Of a DNA stretch of 5,744 nucleotides, positions 1 to 5,744 are shown in pieces. Under the pieces are notes generated by a model that was given only the letters and a program-made list of their open reading frames with translations, did no database searches and was not told the origin of the DNA. Source of the DNA: DAOVGU01 sp030637775 [NCBI: bacterium] (GTDB lineage Bacteria > Ratteibacteria > UBA8468); NCBI GenBank assembly GCA_030637775.1, contig DAOWFY010000034.1, forward strand, positions 1 through 5,744. Direction: 5' to 3'. Numbering within the stretch: the first letter of the stretch is position 1; every line of letters starts with the position of its first letter. A program made the position numbers and the translations under genes.

Positions 1-1723
1 CACCATAAGTGCAGGACCAACCACTATATTCCCTTTCATGATGAGCATATCTTTCCCGGTTTAAGTTTAGGTTTATTAACCTTCTTCTTGACCCAATTCT
101 TAATTCCCGCAGAGGGATAGAAACTTCCATTATCCATTTATTTTTTCCTTTAGAGGTTTTGCTCTGCCAGGAAGAGTTCCATTTTAGGTTACGGGTTTTT
201 ATATCAGGCCGGTATGCTTCATAATGTACATCCTCAGTGTTGGCTGCAAAATGGTAGTAATTTCTTTCATCATAGTTGCTATCAATAAATATCTCAATGC
301 AATCATCTGTCCATACAGAACCGTCATGCTTTTTTTCAGTACATTTTATTTCATTGATAAACGGTTCCTCAGAGATGAAGGCAAGGTAAAGGTTTCTGTC
401 GTCCCGGAGTGCATAGCCAGTGGTCTGAACTTTGGCTAATCTTCCTCCCTCATAATAGGAGAAATTACTGGCTACCTGAGATAACCTCCAGCAGGAATCG
501 TTCAGATTCCCATCAATTATGGGTGGCTCAGAAACCTTATTGCAACAAAGGATGGGATTTACGGGAGAGAATATCACTGGAACCAAAGCCCGGTAGACTA
601 TTTTTTCTTCATCGTTGAGGAGAGTTACCACTACATTATGGAGTTTTGCTCTTCTCAGGGGAGGAGTAAGTTCATAATAGAGGGTAACCCTTTTTTCTTC
701 TTTCCCTTTTAGCTCTATGGAATATTTTCTTTCCTTGACTTTACTCCCGGAAAGAGTGAAACTCGCAACTTTTAAGACAAATTCTTCCGTACACCGGGAA
801 GGATTATTCAATTCAACCATCACCCTCCCTACCGAACTAAGATCGGAACATTCTGCGGCGAGCAATTTTGCCAAAAGTACCTTTTTTCTGAAGATAAGAG
901 AGCCAAGAGAATCGGGAGAAGGTTCTTTTTCTGCTACCGGGAACCAAAGACTTTTCTCATAACCTTCCGGGTATCTATGCCGAATAAAGTTTATTCTCCA
1001 GGACTCCTCCTCCTCAATCCTCTTTATCCCTAAGGACTTAAACGGGATTGAAAGTTCGGCATTCCAACTTTCTCTGTCAATCTGGCAGACCACCTCCCAG
1101 TCTGCCTGCCATTTTTTATCGAAGGTGGGATTATCTTCTTTGGGAACTTTTTTAGCTTCATATTTTGCATCTTTGCTATTGAAGGCAAACCGACAGTAAG
1201 ACAATTCCTTCTTTTCTGAAAGAGGAGCTAAGGCAATCTCAATCGAGTCATCTTCCGAGAGTTGGCTATCCGGTCTTTTCATCTTTGCCCTTATTTTATT
1301 TGGGTAGGGCTCTTCGCAGGAAAAACCAAAATAGATATTCCTCTTATCGTATAAGCAATAGACAGCCGTCTTGCTCTTGGCTAAACGAAAGGTCCTTGGA
1401 GAGATAAAATTTTCTGCCACTTGAGATGTTTCCCAACAGAAATCATCGAGTTTTCCATCAATCTTCGGGGGATGTTTAACATAGACGCAGGATATTAATG
1501 GAGCCATTGCCTTAAAGGAGATTTTCTTCTCTTTCTTTTCCACCCTTTTCCTAATACGGCTTACTGTGCTCCGATAGATTTTGACATCCCAATTTTTCTG
1601 AATAGGGGAGGGTCTCTTGGGATAAAGCCGTCGGTGCAGATAGGAATCAACTATCCGTAGAGAGAGAAAGGACAGGGCCACTGTTGCTAAAAGAATGAAA
1701 TTTTTCCCTCTCCTTTTAACCAT
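1..1723 (-). CDS. Membrane-anchored protein with two CBM9-like domains (C-terminus beyond window)
   Basis: The minus frame stays open from the ATG at 1723 to the left edge (574 codons), so the C-terminus is missing. Residues 1-7 are basic (MVKRRGK) and about 8-25 are hydrophobic, which fits a signal anchor or uncleaved signal peptide. Two similar domains follow, at about 75-280 and 390-574+. Each has PPxIDGxLxDxCW (85-97 and 399-412), SQVAxNF, a RNxYxxF strand followed by EEP, a DDxIEI motif (158-163, 473-478), a YEA motif, a W-rich stretch and SIPxxxL (225-231, 535-541). These are hallmarks of the CBM9/DOMON-like beta-sandwich family. A linker of about 110 residues with no recognised motif separates them. 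The family binds carbohydrate or cofactor outside the cell, but the ligand here is unknown. The start overlaps the upstream ATPase gene by 8 bp, implying coupled translation. A TTG at 1729 lies nearer a GGAAG sequence and is an alternative start. Confidence 0.85.
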   Translation of the reverse strand, partial: MVKRRGKNFILLATVALSFLSLRIVDSYLHRRLYPKRPSPIQKNWDVKIYRSTVSRIRKRVEKKEKKISFKAMAPLISCVYVKHPPKIDGKLDDFCWETSQVAENFISPRTFRLAKSKTAVYCLYDKRNIYFGFSCEEPYPNKIRAKMKRPDSQLSEDDSIEIALAPLSEKKELSYCRFAFNSKDAKYEAKKVPKEDNPTFDKKWQADWEVVCQIDRESWNAELSIPFKSLGIKRIEEEESWRINFIRHRYPEGYEKSLWFPVAEKEPSPDSLGSLIFRKKVLLAKLLAAECSDLSSVGRVMVELNNPSRCTEEFVLKVASFTLSGSKVKERKYSIELKGKEEKRVTLYYELTPPLRRAKLHNVVVTLLNDEEKIVYRALVPVIFSPVNPILCCNKVSEPPIIDGNLNDSCWRLSQVASNFSYYEGGRLAKVQTTGYALRDDRNLYLAFISEEPFINEIKCTEKKHDGSVWTDDCIEIFIDSNYDERNYYHFAANTEDVHYEAYRPDIKTRNLKWNSSWQSKTSKGKNKWIMEVSIPLRELRIGSRRRLINLNLNRERYAHHEREYSGWSCTYG

Positions 1724-2372
1724 TTTCAATGAGACTTCCTTCTTCCATTAAGAAGACTTTCTTGGCAAAGGAGTGCGCTTCCTCTTCCTCGCTGGTAGCA
1801 TAAATGACAGCCAGTCCAAATTTTTCTAAGGCTATTTTCAATTTCTCTTCAATTCTTTCTCTCCAGATTCGATCCAGATTGAGGAGAGGATTATCCAATA
1901 GAGCGACCTTCCTTATTGTCAAAAGGTAGCGAGACAAATCCAGCCGCTGCTGTTCTCCTCGTGATTGGGTAGCTGGGCGTAACCCTAAGAGAATTTTCTT
2001 TTCTATCTTCATTAAGTTGGAGACAATATCTATTCTCTCCTTTATAATCTGGAAGTACCATCTTTGATACATAAACCAATAGGGTAATCTCTTGCCAGAT
2101 TTTTCTCTTCTGTATGGAGGGTAATCCTGAAAGATGGCTACAGTTTTTGGTTCCTTTGCAAGGATTTCGGTAACAGGTTTGTTTTCCAAGAGAACTTCCC
2201 CCTCATCAGGTCTTTCTAATCCGGCAACTATTCTTAAAAAAGTTGTTTTTCCGCAGCCGCTGGGACCGAGAAGAGAGACGATTTCTCCTTCCTCTAATTT
2301 CAGGTTTACCTTCTCCAGGACCCTTTTGTTGCCAAATTTTTTACTGAGATTCTCTACCGCAAGTATCACCAT
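1716..2372 (-). CDS. ABC transporter ATP-binding protein with degenerate catalytic motifs
   Basis: 218 residues from the ATG at 2372. The Walker A motif GPSGCGKTT (36-44) is intact and Q82 of the Q-loop (FQDY) is present. The N-terminal sequence and the D-loop-like LLNLD (163-167) resemble sugar-type ABC ATPases of the MalK/UgpC group. Other catalytic elements have drifted: the LSGGQ signature reads QSRGEQQR (136-143), Walker B is VALLDNP with Asn in place of the catalytic Glu, and the switch His is Ser (ATSEEEEA). The C-terminal regulatory domain of MalK is absent. Nucleotide binding looks possible, but hydrolysis is doubtful unless a partner subunit supplies it; early decay to a pseudogene is also possible. 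No permease gene lies in the window. A GTG at 2381 would lengthen the protein by three residues, but it lies upstream of the predicted transcription start, whereas ATG 2372 has GAGG just before it. Confidence 0.85.
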   Translation of the reverse strand: MVILAVENLSKKFGNKRVLEKVNLKLEEGEIVSLLGPSGCGKTTFLRIVAGLERPDEGEVLLENKPVTEILAKEPKTVAIFQDYPPYRREKSGKRLPYWFMYQRWYFQIIKERIDIVSNLMKIEKKILLGLRPATQSRGEQQRLDLSRYLLTIRKVALLDNPLLNLDRIWRERIEEKLKIALEKFGLAVIYATSEEEEAHSFAKKVFLMEEGSLIENG

Positions 2373-2384
2373 CGTCCTCACATT

Positions 2385-2413
2385 AGTATATATAGAGGCG
2401 AGGAAGTTGTCAA
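2385..2413 (-). promoter_or_regulatory. Sigma70-type promoter for the ABC/CBM9 unit
   Basis: On the minus strand, TTGACA (2413-2408), a 17-nt spacer and TATACT (2390-2385) match the sigma70 consensus at 11 of 12 positions. The expected transcription start is near 2378, only about 6 nt before the ATG at 2372, so the mRNA would be nearly leaderless. This placement argues for ATG 2372 over GTG 2381. Confidence 0.7.
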
Positions 2414-2420
2414 CTTGACA
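2408..2420. repeat. 13-bp palindrome formed by abutting divergent -35 boxes
   Basis: TGTCAACTTGACA has two perfect 6-bp arms around a central C. Each arm is a consensus -35 hexamer (TTGACA) on opposite strands, so the two divergent promoters sit back to back one base apart. RNA polymerase binding on one side should compete with binding on the other. The palindrome could also be an operator, but no particular regulator is suggested. Confidence 0.7.
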
Positions 2421-2443
2421 TCCTATATCTTGTGTTTTATAAT
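2415..2443 (+). promoter_or_regulatory. Perfect sigma70-type promoter for nrdR-nrdD
   Basis: TTGACA (2415-2420), a 17-nt spacer and TATAAT (2438-2443) match the consensus in both hexamers with ideal spacing. Transcription should begin near 2450, leaving about 15 nt before the nrdR ATG. No Shine-Dalgarno sequence is visible there. A weaker overlapping set, TTGTGT (2430-2435) and TACAAT (2453-2458), also has 17-nt spacing and would give a leaderless nrdR transcript. Confidence 0.8.
2420..2435 (+). promoter_or_regulatory. Candidate NrdR box 1
   Basis: ATCCTATATCTTGTGT matches 13 of 16 positions of the published NrdR-box consensus acaCwAtATaTwGtgt. It starts at the last base of the -35 hexamer and covers most of the promoter spacer, where a bound repressor would block RNA polymerase. 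Its position beside nrdR and upstream of nrdD fits known NrdR regulation of ribonucleotide reductase operons. This is a by-eye match. Confidence 0.6.
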
Positions 2444-2449
2444 TAGATA

Positions 2450-2465
2450 TGATACAATATAGTGT
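2450..2465 (+). promoter_or_regulatory. Candidate NrdR box 2
   Basis: TGATACAATATAGTGT matches about 11 of 16 consensus positions. The right half (ATATAGTGT) is perfect and the left half is weak. It spans the predicted transcription start and ends directly before the nrdR ATG. Its centre is 30 bp from that of box 1, close to the three-helical-turn spacing (about 31-32 bp) known for paired NrdR boxes. Confidence 0.5.
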
Positions 2466-3011
2466 ATGAAATGTCCTTTCTGTGGAAACTCAGAGGATAA
2501 GGTTGTCGATTCCCGGGAAGCAGAGGATGGTCTGGCTGTTCGTCGCAGAAGGGAATGCCTGAAGTGTGCTCGCCGGTTTACCACTTACGAAGAGATAGAG
2601 GAAAGACCTCTTCTGGTTATAAAGCGCGATGGTCGCAGGGAGCCATTCGAGCGCAAAAAACTTGAGGTTGGAATCTTGAAGGCCTGTGAAAAAAGGCCAA
2701 TTCCCTTTGAAACAATAGAAATAATCATCGATCGTTTGGTGAGAGAATTGCGAAGGGGATTTCCGGTGGAGATAAATTCTAAAGAGATTGGGGAAAGAGT
2801 AATTAAGGAATTAAGAAAAATTGATGAGGTTGCCTACGTGAGGTTTGCTTCGGTCTATCGTCAATTCAAGGATGCAGCGGAATTTACCGAAGAGGTAAGA
2901 AGGCTCGGCAAGTTTCCTAAGCGGCACGCTCGATTTCCCCAGCGAGGAAATCTTCGCTCTCGTTGCTCCTCGCTCCCCAGCCCTCTGAGCAAGAAAGTGC
3001 AAGCTTTGTAG
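2466..3011 (+). CDS. nrdR: Transcriptional repressor NrdR with a foreign C-terminal tail
   Basis: NrdR represses ribonucleotide reductase genes in response to ATP/dATP. The sequence begins MKCPFCG, with a four-Cys zinc ribbon (C3, C6, C31, C34) and the family motif VRRRRECLKC...RRFTTYE. An ATP-cone follows at about 49-135, starting VIKRDGRREPF and ending VAYVRFASVYRQF. NrdR is normally about 150 residues, and here the native part ends near 146-150 (FTEEVRRLGK). The remaining 30 or so residues (to 181) are Arg/Ser/Pro-rich, are encoded by an inverted-repeat element, and are unlike the family. The zinc ribbon and ATP-cone are intact, so DNA binding and nucleotide sensing may be kept, although the tail could affect oligomerisation. 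The ATG is fixed by the MKCPFCG start. There is no obvious Shine-Dalgarno sequence, and the promoter carries candidate NrdR boxes, implying autoregulation. Confidence 0.95.
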   Translation: MKCPFCGNSEDKVVDSREAEDGLAVRRRRECLKCARRFTTYEEIEERPLLVIKRDGRREPFERKKLEVGILKACEKRPIPFETIEIIIDRLVRELRRGFPVEINSKEIGERVIKELRKIDEVAYVRFASVYRQFKDAAEFTEEVRRLGKFPKRHARFPQRGNLRSRCSSLPSPLSKKVQAL

Positions 3012-3077
3012 AGCATAGAGGGCTGGGACCATGCCCGCTTCGTCGCTAACAAGGCCGCTACAGAAACTTTCCTCGCC
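2902..3077. repeat. GC-rich nested inverted-repeat element (MITE- or REP-like)
   Basis: The outer arms 2902-2925 and 3077-3054 match at 18 of 24 positions when one is reverse-complemented, sharing AAGTTTC and AGCGGC. Inside are a perfect 11-bp stem (2976-2986 with 3017-3027) and a 7-bp hairpin with a 7-nt loop, GATTTCC to GGAAATC (2932-2952). The row 2941-3000 is 35/60 G+C, richer than much of the flanking sequence. The element carries no transposase gene, so if mobile it would be non-autonomous. It starts within the last native codons of nrdR, supplies its stop codon and ends 16 bp before the next gene. No clear target-site duplication is visible. Confidence 0.6.
2976..3027 (+). repeat. Perfect 11-bp hairpin stem at the nrdR stop codon
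   Basis: CCCAGCCCTCT (2976-2986) pairs perfectly with AGAGGGCTGGG (3017-3027) across a 30-nt loop. The nrdR stop codon (3009-3011) lies in the loop. No U-run follows, so an intrinsic terminator is unlikely. In the mRNA it could slow 3' decay or adjust read-through into the nrdD part of the operon. Confidence 0.6.
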
Positions 3078-3093
3078 TTTGTATATACTAATT

Positions 3094-3678
3094 ATGGAAG
3101 AAAAATTAAAAAATGTAAAAAAAAGAGACGGGAGAATTGTTCCCTTTGATAAAAATAAGATTACCGAGGCCATCTTTAAGGCAGCGAAAGCGGTAGGAGG
3201 AGAGGACCGATATTTAGCGGAAGACCTGGCCGATAGTGTTACCTTTTACCTGCAGAAACAGTTTGTTAATAAAATTCCTGCAGTAGAAGAGATTCAGGAT
3301 ATTGTGGAGAAGGTTCTCATTAAAACCGGTCATGCCAAAACGGCCAAAGCTTATATTCTCTATCGGGAAAAACGAGCCAGAATCAGAAAGATTAAGAAAG
3401 GCATTATCTTAGGAGAATTGGAAGAGGAACTGGCCTCTGGTGGCTTTACCGGTCTCTTTCTCCTTATCGGAAGATCTGAGGATGAGGTTCTCCTCTGGGA
3501 GCGAGGAAAAGTTGTTGACGCTTTAGTAAAGGAGAAAGGCCTATCAAGAAATATTGCCGAATTAATCGGTTTAGAAGTGGAAGACCAAATTCTTAATTCT
3601 AAAATGAAAGCATTATCCACTTCCTCGATTGAGGAATTGATCAATAACAAAGTGGCCGAATATAGTCAAAGAAGATGA
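3094..3678 (+). CDS. Stand-alone ATP-cone protein resembling a ribonucleotide reductase N-terminus
   Basis: 194 residues. Residues about 5-98 form an ATP-cone, with VKKRDGRIVPFDKNKI, IPAVEEIQDIVEKVL and TAKAYILYREKRARIR. The domain is close in sequence to the one at the start of the downstream NrdD. Residues about 128-188 (LLWERGKVVDALVKEKGL to STSSIEELINN) recall the helical segment that follows the ATP-cone in some class II and III reductases. The glycyl-radical barrel is absent, so this cannot be a reductase by itself. It may be a duplicated reductase N-terminus acting as a nucleotide-sensing partner of NrdD or NrdR; this role is inferred. The ATG at 3094 is chosen because residues encoded upstream, from an ATG at 3031, come from the repeat element. 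No Shine-Dalgarno sequence is visible. A TATACT at 3084-3089 could be a -10 box giving a leaderless mRNA, but no good -35 is seen. The stop codon is 9 nt before nrdD. Confidence 0.85.
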   Translation: MEEKLKNVKKRDGRIVPFDKNKITEAIFKAAKAVGGEDRYLAEDLADSVTFYLQKQFVNKIPAVEEIQDIVEKVLIKTGHAKTAKAYILYREKRARIRKIKKGIILGELEEELASGGFTGLFLLIGRSEDEVLLWERGKVVDALVKEKGLSRNIAELIGLEVEDQILNSKMKALSTSSIEELINNKVAEYSQRR

Positions 3679-3687: not shown

Positions 3688-5744
3688 ATGTTTGAAAAAA
3701 TTGAGAAAAGGAAGGGGCAAATAGTAAAATTTGAAGCGGAAAAAATCACTACCGCCATTGGAAAGGCCGGAGCCGCTACCGGCGAATTTGAGGAGAAGGT
3801 TGCGCAAAAGTTAACTCTCAAGGTATTAAGTTTAGCGCAGAATCTAATTACCGATAGAGTTCCTACCGTTGAGGAGATTCAGGATGTGGTGGAGGAAGTT
3901 TTACTCTCCTCTCCTTACCGCAAAACCGCGCGCGCCTACATTATCTATCGTGAGCAACATGCGAGAATCAGAGCAATTGCTACCGCCGCAAGTCTCGATT
4001 TGGTTGATCAATATTTAGCTAAAAGCGATTGGCGGGTCAATGAAAATAGTAATATGACATTTTCTCTGCAAGGGTTGAATAATTACCTTTCTTCCGAGGT
4101 TACCGCCACTTACTGGTTAAATAAGATTTATCCGGCCGAAATCCGGGAGGCTCATCTGAAGGGAGATTTTCACATCCATGATTTAAGTATCTTTTCTACC
4201 TATTGCGTGGGCTGGGACCTTTTTGACCTTTTGGTTCGTGGTTTCGGTGGTGTCTCCGGTAAGGTAGAAAGTAAGCCGGCAAAGCACCTGCGCGCTGCTC
4301 TTGGCCAGATCGCCAATTTTTTCTATACCCTTCAAGGCGAGTCCGCGGGAGCGCAGGCCTTTGCTAACTTCGACACACTTCTCTCGCCTTTTGTCCGCTA
4401 TGATCACTTAGATTTTCCGCAGGTAAAGCAGGCGCTCCAGGAGTTTATCTTCAATGTTAATGTGCCTACACGGGTAGGGTTCCAATGTGTTTCAGAAGAT
4501 ACTGAAATATTAACTCCAGATGGATGGCAAGGTTATAACGAGATAAAAAAGGGAAGCGTAATAAGAGCTTTTAATATAAGAACTAAAAGGATAGAAAATC
4601 AGACGGTGAATTATGTTTTTAAAAAGAATTACCAGGGTATTATGTATAACTTGAAAAATCGCATTCAAGACCAACTGGTTTCTCCTCGGCACAGAGTTGT
4701 GAGAAAAAAATTCCAAAGTGATAGATATATTTTGGAACCTATTGAAGAGATTGTGAAGTTGAAATCTCCTTTTATTGTTCCCATCGCTGGGAAAAATTCA
4801 AATAAGAAGGCGAAAATCAGTGATAAACAGATAAAATTGATGGCCTGGATTATCAGCGAAGGAACAATAGAGCGCCCCACAAAATACCGATGCTGTTATC
4901 GAGTAAGTATTTATCAATCTAAAATTAATAATAAGGAAAATTACCAGGAAATCATAAATTTATTGAATGATTTTAAGATAAAATATTCAGAAGCTGAAGC
5001 TTCTTCCCTGGGAAATAATGTTAAGAGAATGAGATTAAATGCCGAAAGTTCGCGAAAAATCCATCAATGGTTCGGTACAAAAGAAAATATTCACTTTATT
5101 CCCGATATTTTGCTGAATCTGAATCAACAACAATCACGCTTATTCCTGGAGACATATTTGAAGGCAGATGGATTTGAGAATTGCAAAATTTCCACAACCG
5201 ACCCCGCATTGCTGGAAGATTTACAGATAGTGGTGGTTAATAGCGGCTATAGTCTTACTACTCTCAAACGTAAGCCAACGATTGGTAAAAAAGAGATTTA
5301 TGTTTTAAGGATAATTAAGCATCAAGAGACATATATTCAAAGGGTGGAGAAGGTGAACTATAAGGGCGTTATCTGGTCTCCCCATACGAAAAATGAAACA
5401 GTTATTGCCAGAAGAAAGGGAAAGGTATTCATTACCGGCAATACTCCCTTTACCAATATCACCCTAGATTTAACGCCTCCGGCATATTTTGCTAAAGCGC
5501 CGGTTATCATTGGGGGAAAACCACAAAAAGAGACCTATCAGGAGTTTCAGGAAGAGATGAATACCATTAATCGGGCTTTCCTGGAAGTAATGGTCCAAGG
5601 AGATGGCAAAGGGAGGGTCTTTACATTTCCGATACCAACATATAATATCACCAAGGATTTTGATTGGAAAAACCGTAATACGAAATTGCTCTGGCAGGTG
5701 ACCGCCAAATATGGTATTCCCTATTTTTCCAATTTTATTAATTC
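3688..5744 (+). CDS. nrdD: Anaerobic (class III) ribonucleoside-triphosphate reductase, intein-containing, C-terminus beyond window
   Basis: NrdD reduces ribonucleoside triphosphates to deoxynucleotides under anoxia using a glycyl radical installed by NrdG. The frame is open to the right edge: 685 codons, made up of 266 N-extein, 319 intein and 100 C-extein residues. An ATP-cone occupies about 3-97 (EKRKGQIVKF, VPTVEEIQDVVEEVL, RAYIIYREQHARIR). The reductase barrel starts near 105 and has DFHIHDL (160-166) followed by YCVGWDL, where Cys173 fits the first active-site thiol. NVPTRVGFQ (258-266) and TPFTNITLDL after the intein form the conserved NrdD junction. The remaining active-site Cys and the C-terminal glycyl-radical site lie outside the window. 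It is the third ATP-cone gene in a row. Activity depends on intein splicing. Confidence 0.95.
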   Translation, partial: MFEKIEKRKGQIVKFEAEKITTAIGKAGAATGEFEEKVAQKLTLKVLSLAQNLITDRVPTVEEIQDVVEEVLLSSPYRKTARAYIIYREQHARIRAIATAASLDLVDQYLAKSDWRVNENSNMTFSLQGLNNYLSSEVTATYWLNKIYPAEIREAHLKGDFHIHDLSIFSTYCVGWDLFDLLVRGFGGVSGKVESKPAKHLRAALGQIANFFYTLQGESAGAQAFANFDTLLSPFVRYDHLDFPQVKQALQEFIFNVNVPTRVGFQCVSEDTEILTPDGWQGYNEIKKGSVIRAFNIRTKRIENQTVNYVFKKNYQGIMYNLKNRIQDQLVSPRHRVVRKKFQSDRYILEPIEEIVKLKSPFIVPIAGKNSNKKAKISDKQIKLMAWIISEGTIERPTKYRCCYRVSIYQSKINNKENYQEIINLLNDFKIKYSEAEASSLGNNVKRMRLNAESSRKIHQWFGTKENIHFIPDILLNLNQQQSRLFLETYLKADGFENCKISTTDPALLEDLQIVVVNSGYSLTTLKRKPTIGKKEIYVLRIIKHQETYIQRVEKVNYKGVIWSPHTKNETVIARRKGKVFITGNTPFTNITLDLTPPAYFAKAPVIIGGKPQKETYQEFQEEMNTINRAFLEVMVQGDGKGRVFTFPIPTYNITKDFDWKNRNTKLLWQVTAKYGIPYFSNFIN
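4486..5442 (+). mobile_element. Intein with LAGLIDADG-type homing endonuclease inside NrdD
   Basis: 319 in-frame residues interrupt NrdD between GFQ and TPFTN. Block A begins with Cys1 (CVSEDTEILTPDGW), block B is LVSPRHRVV with His69, and block G is GKVFITGN, ending in Asn319 before Thr+1. Two endonuclease motifs are visible: LMAWIISEGTI (118-128), with Glu as the acidic residue, and LFLETYLKADGF (219-230). The spacing fits a DOD homing endonuclease inserted in a splicing domain. The penultimate residue is Gly rather than the usual His; other inteins ending ARR-x-GKV-x-x-TGN are known. The DNA is more AT-rich than the host gene: row 4801-4860 has 21/60 G+C against 32/60 in row 4261-4320. The frame is intact and all blocks can be recognised, so splicing is likely. 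Endonuclease activity is uncertain. Confidence 0.93.

Follow-up and report, generated by a model that had tools for sequence, protein, structure and literature searches.

The window analysed here is a stretch of 5,744 nucleotides that makes up the whole of contig G000:C88 in a draft bacterial genome (1.40 Mb, 177 contigs, 84% complete), and at positions 4486 to 5442 it carries a 319-residue insert in nrdD, the gene for anaerobic ribonucleotide reductase. We identify this insert as a class 1 intein bearing a LAGLIDADG homing endonuclease (probability about 0.95), which would splice itself out of NrdD and cleave intein-free copies of the gene. The insert is ordinary in kind, and the unusual part is its host lineage together with its relationship to inteins of archaea; comparison of the sequences makes it likely that this intein lineage has spread between archaea and bacteria. 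The original prediction had recognized the intein, its junction and its NrdD host, all of which stand, while it had overlooked the homing endonuclease and the archaeal relationship. The interrupted gene is made up as follows.

3688 to 5742, forward strand: nrdD open reading frame, without a stop across the insert and open at the contig end
3688 to 4485, forward strand: NrdD N-extein, with the ATP-cone (PF03477, expect value [E] 2.6e-20) and the first part of the NRDD domain (PF13597, E 2.2e-74), ending NVPTRVGFQ
4486 to 5442, forward strand: intein, 319 residues, from Cys1 (codon 4486-4488) to Asn319 (codon 5440-5442)
5443 to 5742, forward strand: NrdD C-extein, starting TPFTNITLDL with Thr+1 (codon 5443-5445) and running off the contig end

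The presence of both the NRDD domain and the ATP-cone identifies the host protein as NrdD. Its frame reads NVNVPTRVGFQ, then the insert from its first Cys to its last Asn, then TPFTNITLDL, without a stop, and excision of 4486 to 5442 (exactly 319 codons) joins the flanks as NVPTRVGFQTPFTNITLDL. The predicted boundaries proved exact to the codon, and removal of the 319 codons does rejoin the NrdD motif. The best NCBIfam match of the window NrdD, PRK08270, scores 513.6 bits, under its cut-off of 548, because the protein is both interrupted by the insert and cut by the contig end. Since the window is a complete contig and nrdD runs off its end, the last part of the protein is missing, and the glycyl-radical C-terminal domain and the Zn cysteines lie past that end; a search with an intein-free NrdD found the missing 3' part on no other contig of the draft genome, which also gave no 16S rRNA match. 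The same-genus protein L002 runs on to a full-length NrdD, whose C-terminal part aligns with solved NrdDs.

Using an intein-free NrdD query of 697 residues, we searched 35 genomes from five families of the phylum and obtained NrdD matches in 34, G029 being the one with none. The insertion site is uninterrupted in the orthologous nrdD of 13 genomes, 11 of which matched over query residues 1 to 694 or 695, G022 over 82 to 694 and G027 over 217 to 694. Twelve of these loci read directly as PTR[VT]GFQ[TS]PFTN, and the thirteenth, in G027, was read separately. The site is occupied in four genomes: G000 (the window), G032, G034 and G020. Five could not be scored, three of them (G013, G033, G023) cut by contig ends and two (G016, G025) giving ATP-cone matches only, and in the remaining 12 the sole NrdD is a distant one, about 26 to 30% identical. 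This alignment of homologues, with 13 empty and 4 occupied orthologues, supports the placement of the intein at the GFQ/TPFTN junction. L002 and contig G032:C211 are apparently one record, as their match coordinates are identical. Because the same insert with the same ends occurs in independent bacterial and archaeal genomes, chance is excluded.

The assignment to class 1 draws on an alignment of 20 end-to-end copies, comprising the window intein and 19 relatives, in which Cys1, Thr6, His69, Gly318 and Asn319 are invariant. The N-terminal nucleophile Cys1 is present in every copy, and its presence in the window rules out a class 3 intein, a class that a passage of PMC7664689 characterizes by a Trp-Cys-Thr motif and no N-terminal nucleophile. 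Asn319 is followed by Thr+1 in the window and by Thr, Ser or Cys in the relatives. Block B, usually Thr-x-x-His, keeps His69 in all 20 copies, with Ser at the Thr position in 16 (the window included) and Thr in four. At an E threshold of 0.01, TIGR01445 matches 19, PF14890 10 and PF14528 7 of the 20 copies. Within the intein we distinguish these features.

4486 to 4800, forward strand: N-terminal splicing half, residues 1-105, blocks A and B, with Ser66-Pro-Arg-His69; kept in the G034 mini-intein
4801 to 5310, forward strand: LAGLIDADG homing-endonuclease domain, residues about 106-275; weak PF14528 match (E 2.9e-4, below cut-off) and I-DmoI fold match
4837 to 4863, forward strand: LAGLIDADG motif 1, LMAWIISEG, with acidic Glu125; Glu125 and Gly126 invariant in 20 of 20 copies
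5140 to 5172, forward strand: LAGLIDADG motif 2, LFLETYLKADG, with acidic Asp228; column acidic (Asp or Glu) in all 20 copies
5311 to 5442, forward strand: C-terminal splicing half, residues 276-319, blocks F and G, ending FITGN; kept in the G034 mini-intein

An AlphaFold model of the intein (mean predicted local distance difference test score [pLDDT] 93.9, predicted template modelling score 0.90) has a predicted HINT fold and matches intein and homing-endonuclease structures from end to end. Its alignment by VIA-align to the TliVMA intein 7qsu gave a Z of 23.3 at 4.9 A over 295 residues, with a Foldseek E of 2.7e-17, and other intein entries among the 50 structure matches listed had Z values of 13.7 to 23.2; the top-ranking structures are whole inteins that include an endonuclease. 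The endonuclease domain of the model matched I-DmoI entries in Foldseek with E from 2.3e-7 and probability 1.00. When solved structures were searched with the alignment profile, two chains were returned, the intein endonuclease PI-PkoII (E 3e-4) and MJ0781 (E 2e-3). A search with the single sequence returned one match, an acyl-CoA oxidase at E 0.06, which we took as chance.

We take LMAWIISEG and LFLETYLKADG to be the two LAGLIDADG motifs, going by their position; the acidic residue of each is kept in the window, and both columns are acidic in all 20 rows. Two relatives hold a mini-intein at the site. In G034, which belongs to the same family as the window, it has 149 residues, retaining residues 1-105 and about 276-319 with the endonuclease gone, and in the archaeal genome G118 it has 155 residues and likewise no endonuclease. 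The relatives at this one site therefore span the homing cycle, from empty, through full with an endonuclease, to a mini-intein without one. Between the window and L002, the ratio of nonsynonymous to synonymous substitution rates (dN/dS) is 0.085 in the N splicing half, 0.101 in the endonuclease and 0.051 in the C splicing half, compared with 0.055 and 0.102 in the two exteins, so that in the single pair compared the endonuclease evolves under purifying selection just as the rest of the protein does. Synonymous divergence (dS) is 0.56 in the intein and 0.51-0.56 in the exteins, and from this similarity we conclude that the insert has been inherited with nrdD since the window and L002 species parted.

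Relatives of the intein were sought across both domains. A scan of 84,980 species genomes for exact matches to short peptides from the window intein, which missed several copies found by the later genome search, confirmed six loci that share the site, namely L002 together with two copies each from Aenigmatarchaeota and Nanoarchaeota and one from Candidatus ainarchaeum. Neither of two pattern matches in viral contigs was confirmed as a carrier, and among 264 phage records with matches none reached 60% identity, the highest of the 20 listed being 26%. Archaeal genomes were then searched at an E threshold of 1e-20. In one archaeal phylum 10 of 156 genomes matched, six at GFQ|TPF (the mini-intein included), three in another type of NrdD at a point two residues upstream and one in another protein. 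A second phylum gave matches in 10 of 371 sampled genomes, six at GFQ|TPF, one at the equivalent GTQ|TPF and three in other proteins. Eight of 87 genomes matched in a third; the site was read in three of these, with G039 (L007) and G614 at this site and G581 in another protein, while G569 and G605 gave no reading and G611, G599 and G567 were left out.

More distant inteins turned up elsewhere. Those of L052, L053 and L054 (match starts 1501, 1501 and 106), about 40% identical, belong to a different type of archaeal NrdD, where the insertion point lies two residues further upstream (SRWG|SQ[YF]PFSN instead of GFQ|TPFTN). L056 and L083 hold relatives of about 30% identity with the junction EEAHQF|C, in an archaeal protein that is presumably a HerA-like ATPase. 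L066 has an intein of 27% identity (match at 1501-2538, minus strand) inserted at HTLRH|SFATHL in what we take to be a tyrosine recombinase, and G034 has another, 30%-identical intein (L015, 973-3030) in a different protein, to our reading a sugar-nucleotide epimerase/dehydratase.

The intein and its host gene appear to have different histories. Outside its own family, the window intein is closest to those of DPANN archaea: it is 72.7% identical to that of L003 (Aenigmatarchaeota), 71.8% to L004 and 71.5% to G304, versus 50.3% to that of G020, a bacterium of the same class. The N-exteins show the opposite, with identities of 60.9% to L003, 62.8% to L004 and 57.1% to G304, whereas identity to G020 is 73.5%, measured on just 117 residues, and nine bacteria of the phylum that lack the intein reach 71-75%. 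N-extein values of 30-31% for L029 and L031 are artefacts, because the stretches compared include intein sequence. In an intein tree of 22 rows, the window, L002 and G034 group together (support 99/94) beside the DPANN genome G304 (94/95), and the family's inteins nest in a group that is otherwise archaeal except for G020, which stands apart from them; a tree constrained to unite the four bacterial inteins is worse by 10.8 log units, with a p value of 0.044 in the approximately unbiased test (p-AU). The extein tree (28 rows, 376 columns) holds 13 bacteria, including nine that are intein-free, and 15 archaea, and L022, L023 and L027 (intein-free, GFQ|SPFTN), L029 and L031, and L050, L053 and L054 were left out of it. 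It sets the bacteria and archaea apart at 100/99, and a grouping of the family with three archaea is rejected (p-AU 2e-7). It is because the inteins point to DPANN archaea, while the N-exteins and the extein tree point the other way, that we favor spread between the domains: the bacterial family probably acquired, by lateral transfer, an intein lineage whose present members are mostly known from DPANN archaea, and then passed it on vertically within the genus. The sequences suggest that the intein crossed between the domains at least once, with archaea the more likely source.

Some of our observations weigh against the identification of a functional intein or against its transfer between domains. 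The penultimate residue is Gly318 in all 20 copies in place of the usual His, and the window falls below curated cut-offs (17.8 bits versus 24.5 for TIGR01445, 21.5 versus 22.5 for PF14528), although the cut-off of an intein profile is a matter of detection and does not define the class. The missing His, along with the Ser that replaces Thr in block B, could mark a degenerate, splicing-dead intein that leaves nrdD inactive in its host. Yet a Gly fixed in 20 of 20 copies is a lineage trait and not decay, and it is no bar to class 1 membership, because about 5% of functional inteins have a residue other than His there, according to an excerpt of PMC4031507. With dN/dS against L002 low in both splicing halves and in the exteins, and no other ribonucleotide reductase detected in the family, we regard a dead intein as very improbable. 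That the insert might instead be an integral extra domain of an NrdD subfamily, kept in the mature enzyme, would agree with its presence at the same place in both genus members examined and in archaea of three phyla. However, there are orthologues without it, the splice-junction residues are conserved, the mini-intein of one relative shows the central domain to be removable with the junctions intact, and the predicted fold is that of an intein, so that this explanation has almost no probability left. The outcome that the original prediction had named as its refutation, homologues with these residues as an integral domain, was therefore not obtained.

As for the transfer, the 100-residue C-extein hardly separates the domains (59-71% identity to archaea at the site versus 65-76% to bacteria), the rejection of a single bacterial intein clade is marginal, the intein tree has stars on only five of its 19 inner branches, and the direction rests on moderately supported nodes. 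We infer the direction and the number of transfers rather than observe them, because the deeper parts of the tree are not settled and the branch of G020 is long. Nor did a comparison along the gene of the family's NrdD identity to archaeal and to other bacterial NrdD, with bacterial controls, reveal a clear co-conversion tract; in several regions the family's tilt towards bacteria is smaller than that of the controls (for example +0.01 versus +0.10 to +0.14 at residues -120 to -60), and we do not claim a tract because the family is the deepest bacterial branch and shows the smaller tilt in regions far from the site as well. The intein has a GC content of 0.347 and the exteins have 0.46 and 0.41, but this argues only weakly for a foreign origin, because the six archaeal inteins measured are also GC-poorer than their surroundings. 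One could accordingly suppose that the intein descended vertically from an ancient common ancestor and was lost in most lineages, without any transfer between domains. A single common site, the capacity of inteins to be lost, the endonuclease decay seen in two mini-inteins and the borderline p-AU all fit such a history, which is nonetheless unlikely, though not negligible, given that the family's inteins lie inside an otherwise archaeal group and are closer to an archaeal copy than to that of their own class, with the N-exteins reversed. An exchange of the whole nrdD gene between archaea and bacteria would account for the 53-63% identity of the window N-extein to those of 12 archaeal copies at the site (G188, with 45 residues, left out); this has little probability against the clean split of the extein tree and its rejection of a mixed group. 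Transfer of the intein into a bacterial nrdD remains our preferred reading, and it would mean that the histories of the intein and of its host gene part ways across the divide between archaea and bacteria, involving DPANN lineages in which few inteins have been tabulated.

The analysis establishes the sequence family, the predicted fold, the site, the mini-intein forms and the purifying selection; the splicing and cleavage reactions we infer. The insert would be translated in frame with NrdD; Cys1 would attack the Gln-Cys peptide bond, and the N-extein would move to Thr+1; cyclization of Asn319 would release the intein and leave the exteins joined as VGFQTPFTN. At the DNA level, the endonuclease would cut intein-free nrdD alleles at GFQ|TPFTN, and repair would copy the intein in.

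The suggestion that NrdD activity depends on splicing has been strengthened by the genomes of the family. The catalytic domain of class I and II reductases, PF02867, was not found in any of its four draft genomes (84, 93, 77 and 83% complete), in a search that was positive in 11 of 14 known genomes used as a control. This lack is not peculiar to the family, because 17 of 35 genomes of the phylum have the domain. Judging from gene content, NrdD is probably the sole ribonucleotide reductase of the family, and since no class I or II reductase was detected, NrdD assembly and the supply of DNA precursors should depend on splicing. Extracts from PMC6805012 describe a fungal Prp8 intein inhibited by copper and zinc via catalytic residues. 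By analogy, this precedent makes conditional splicing of NrdD a reasonable question but is not evidence in the present case, and our results speak neither for nor against the predicted control of dNTP supply by splicing. An organism group whose single detected ribonucleotide reductase needs splicing would allow intein regulation of essential enzymes to be tested.

NrdD is interrupted at other sites in the relatives: at QGE|SAGAQ (L002, G027), AQAF|SNFDT (G034, G020), GRVF|TFPIP and PYF|SNFIN (both G034), at the MCCR motif (L002, G034, L003, L004, G144), and probably at PLTG|S (L059). The window is empty at the first four, and MCCR and PLTG|S lie past its contig end. The NrdD frame of G034 (L067, 729-8294) runs for 2523 codons and contains five inteins at five sites (383, 149, 510, 435 and 331 residues), removal of which leaves about 700 residues. 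The nrdD of G033 (L068, 4412-5085) stops at its contig end at the QG of QGE|SAGAQ, which suggests an assembly break at another intein.

Inteins at the MCCR motif (L067, 6333-7352; L073, 1489-2502; L074, 1489-2499; L076, 1489-2021, first part only) read SMC|PL.GxEK[VI]LIK at their start and ILTHN|CRLR at their end. We take Pro as the first intein residue because the ligated product retains the two cysteines of SMCCRLR only under that assignment, and in two of three cases position 2 of TIGR01445 falls on the residue after this Pro, the third alignment starting later. On this reading of the sequence, the intein appears to lack a Cys1 or Ser1 nucleophile. In the Thermotoga maritima NrdD, the C329A and C330A changes in the corresponding SCCR motif gave activities indistinguishable from background, as stated in a portion of PMC4493059. 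The model of the L067 intein at this site was poor (pLDDT 44.7, 4 sequences) and was not used. The MCCR-site intein of G034 is 66% identical to that of Aenigmatarchaeota L004 and 23% identical to that of L002, and the G034 type occurs in 3 of the 156 genomes of that archaeal phylum, so the G034 and L004 copies are a possible second cross-domain pair. It is a distinctly doubtful extrapolation that NrdD could be a hub of cross-domain intein exchange, in which two inteins (at this site and at SMC|CRLR) would each have passed between DPANN archaea and one bacterial family, leaving the supply of DNA precursors hostage to the splicing of up to five inteins, conceivably as a redox- or metal-sensitive replication switch.

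Upstream of nrdD the window holds two further genes on the same strand.

2466 to 3011, forward strand: nrdR, ribonucleotide reductase transcription regulator (TIGR00244, 190.7 bits, cut-off 124.65)
3094 to 3678, forward strand: small ATP-cone protein (PF03477, E 1.2e-26), adjoining nrdD upstream

The small ATP-cone gene lies directly 5' of nrdD in G033 (L068) and G034 (L067) too. The 3' end of nrdR and the gap after it (2907-3081) are a dispersed repeat that forms the end of the nrdR frame. The draft genome has 49 matching pieces, counting that of the window itself; most correspond to the left 69 and the right 52 bases. At C83 there is a match to the central 52 bases (2976-3027) by themselves, which looks like the insertion of one small repeat into another. 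The segment 2905-3090 has an RNA fold z-score of -3.4. On the reverse strand, a long protein with two CBM9-like carbohydrate-binding regions (5-1729; PF06452, E 3.2e-19) is adjoined by an ABC transporter ATPase (1716-2381).

Inteins are familiar in this class of host. The NrdD of Methanocaldococcus jannaschii carries inteins. An intein in the NrdD of Clostridium phage c-st has been reported (PMC3653736, in part), and the RNRdb counts about 80 in ribonucleotide reductases, going by an excerpt of PMC2795772. The survey table excerpted from PMC10643990 lists one intein in two DPANN genomes. In open-licence PubMed Central literature, searched by title and start of abstract, we found no description of this site or of NrdD intein exchange between DPANN archaea and bacteria, which is weak evidence of absence given the partial coverage.

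Among known systems, the inteins of NrdD and other ribonucleotide reductases, such as that of phage c-st and those of phage and cellular RIR1, share with the window intein a ribonucleotide reductase as host. The DPANN NrdD inteins (Aenigmatarchaeota L003 and L004, Nanoarchaeota L005 and L006, Candidatus ainarchaeum L007 and others) have both its site and its ends. Thirteen full-length copies of 316-321 residues are 57-73% identical to it, with G358 further away at 44%, and block F reads Trp-Cys-Pro in 11 of the 13, whereas the bacterial copies of the window and L002 have Trp-Ser-Pro. The intron-encoded LAGLIDADG enzyme I-DmoI resembles the endonuclease domain, with a root-mean-square deviation of 3.4-3.9 A (5.0 for 1b24) over 171-180 alignment columns; unlike I-DmoI, the window domain sits inside a splicing domain. 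With the class 1 LAGLIDADG inteins TliVMA (7qss/7qsu), PhoVMA (7qst), PI-PfuI (1dq3) and PI-SceI, the window intein shares its predicted fold over the whole length and its two-domain build (for PI-PfuI, Z 20.9 and 3.9 A over 300 residues), at 11-17% identity in aligned rows, and it differs from these solved inteins in being shorter (319 residues), in its penultimate Gly and in the protein that it interrupts.

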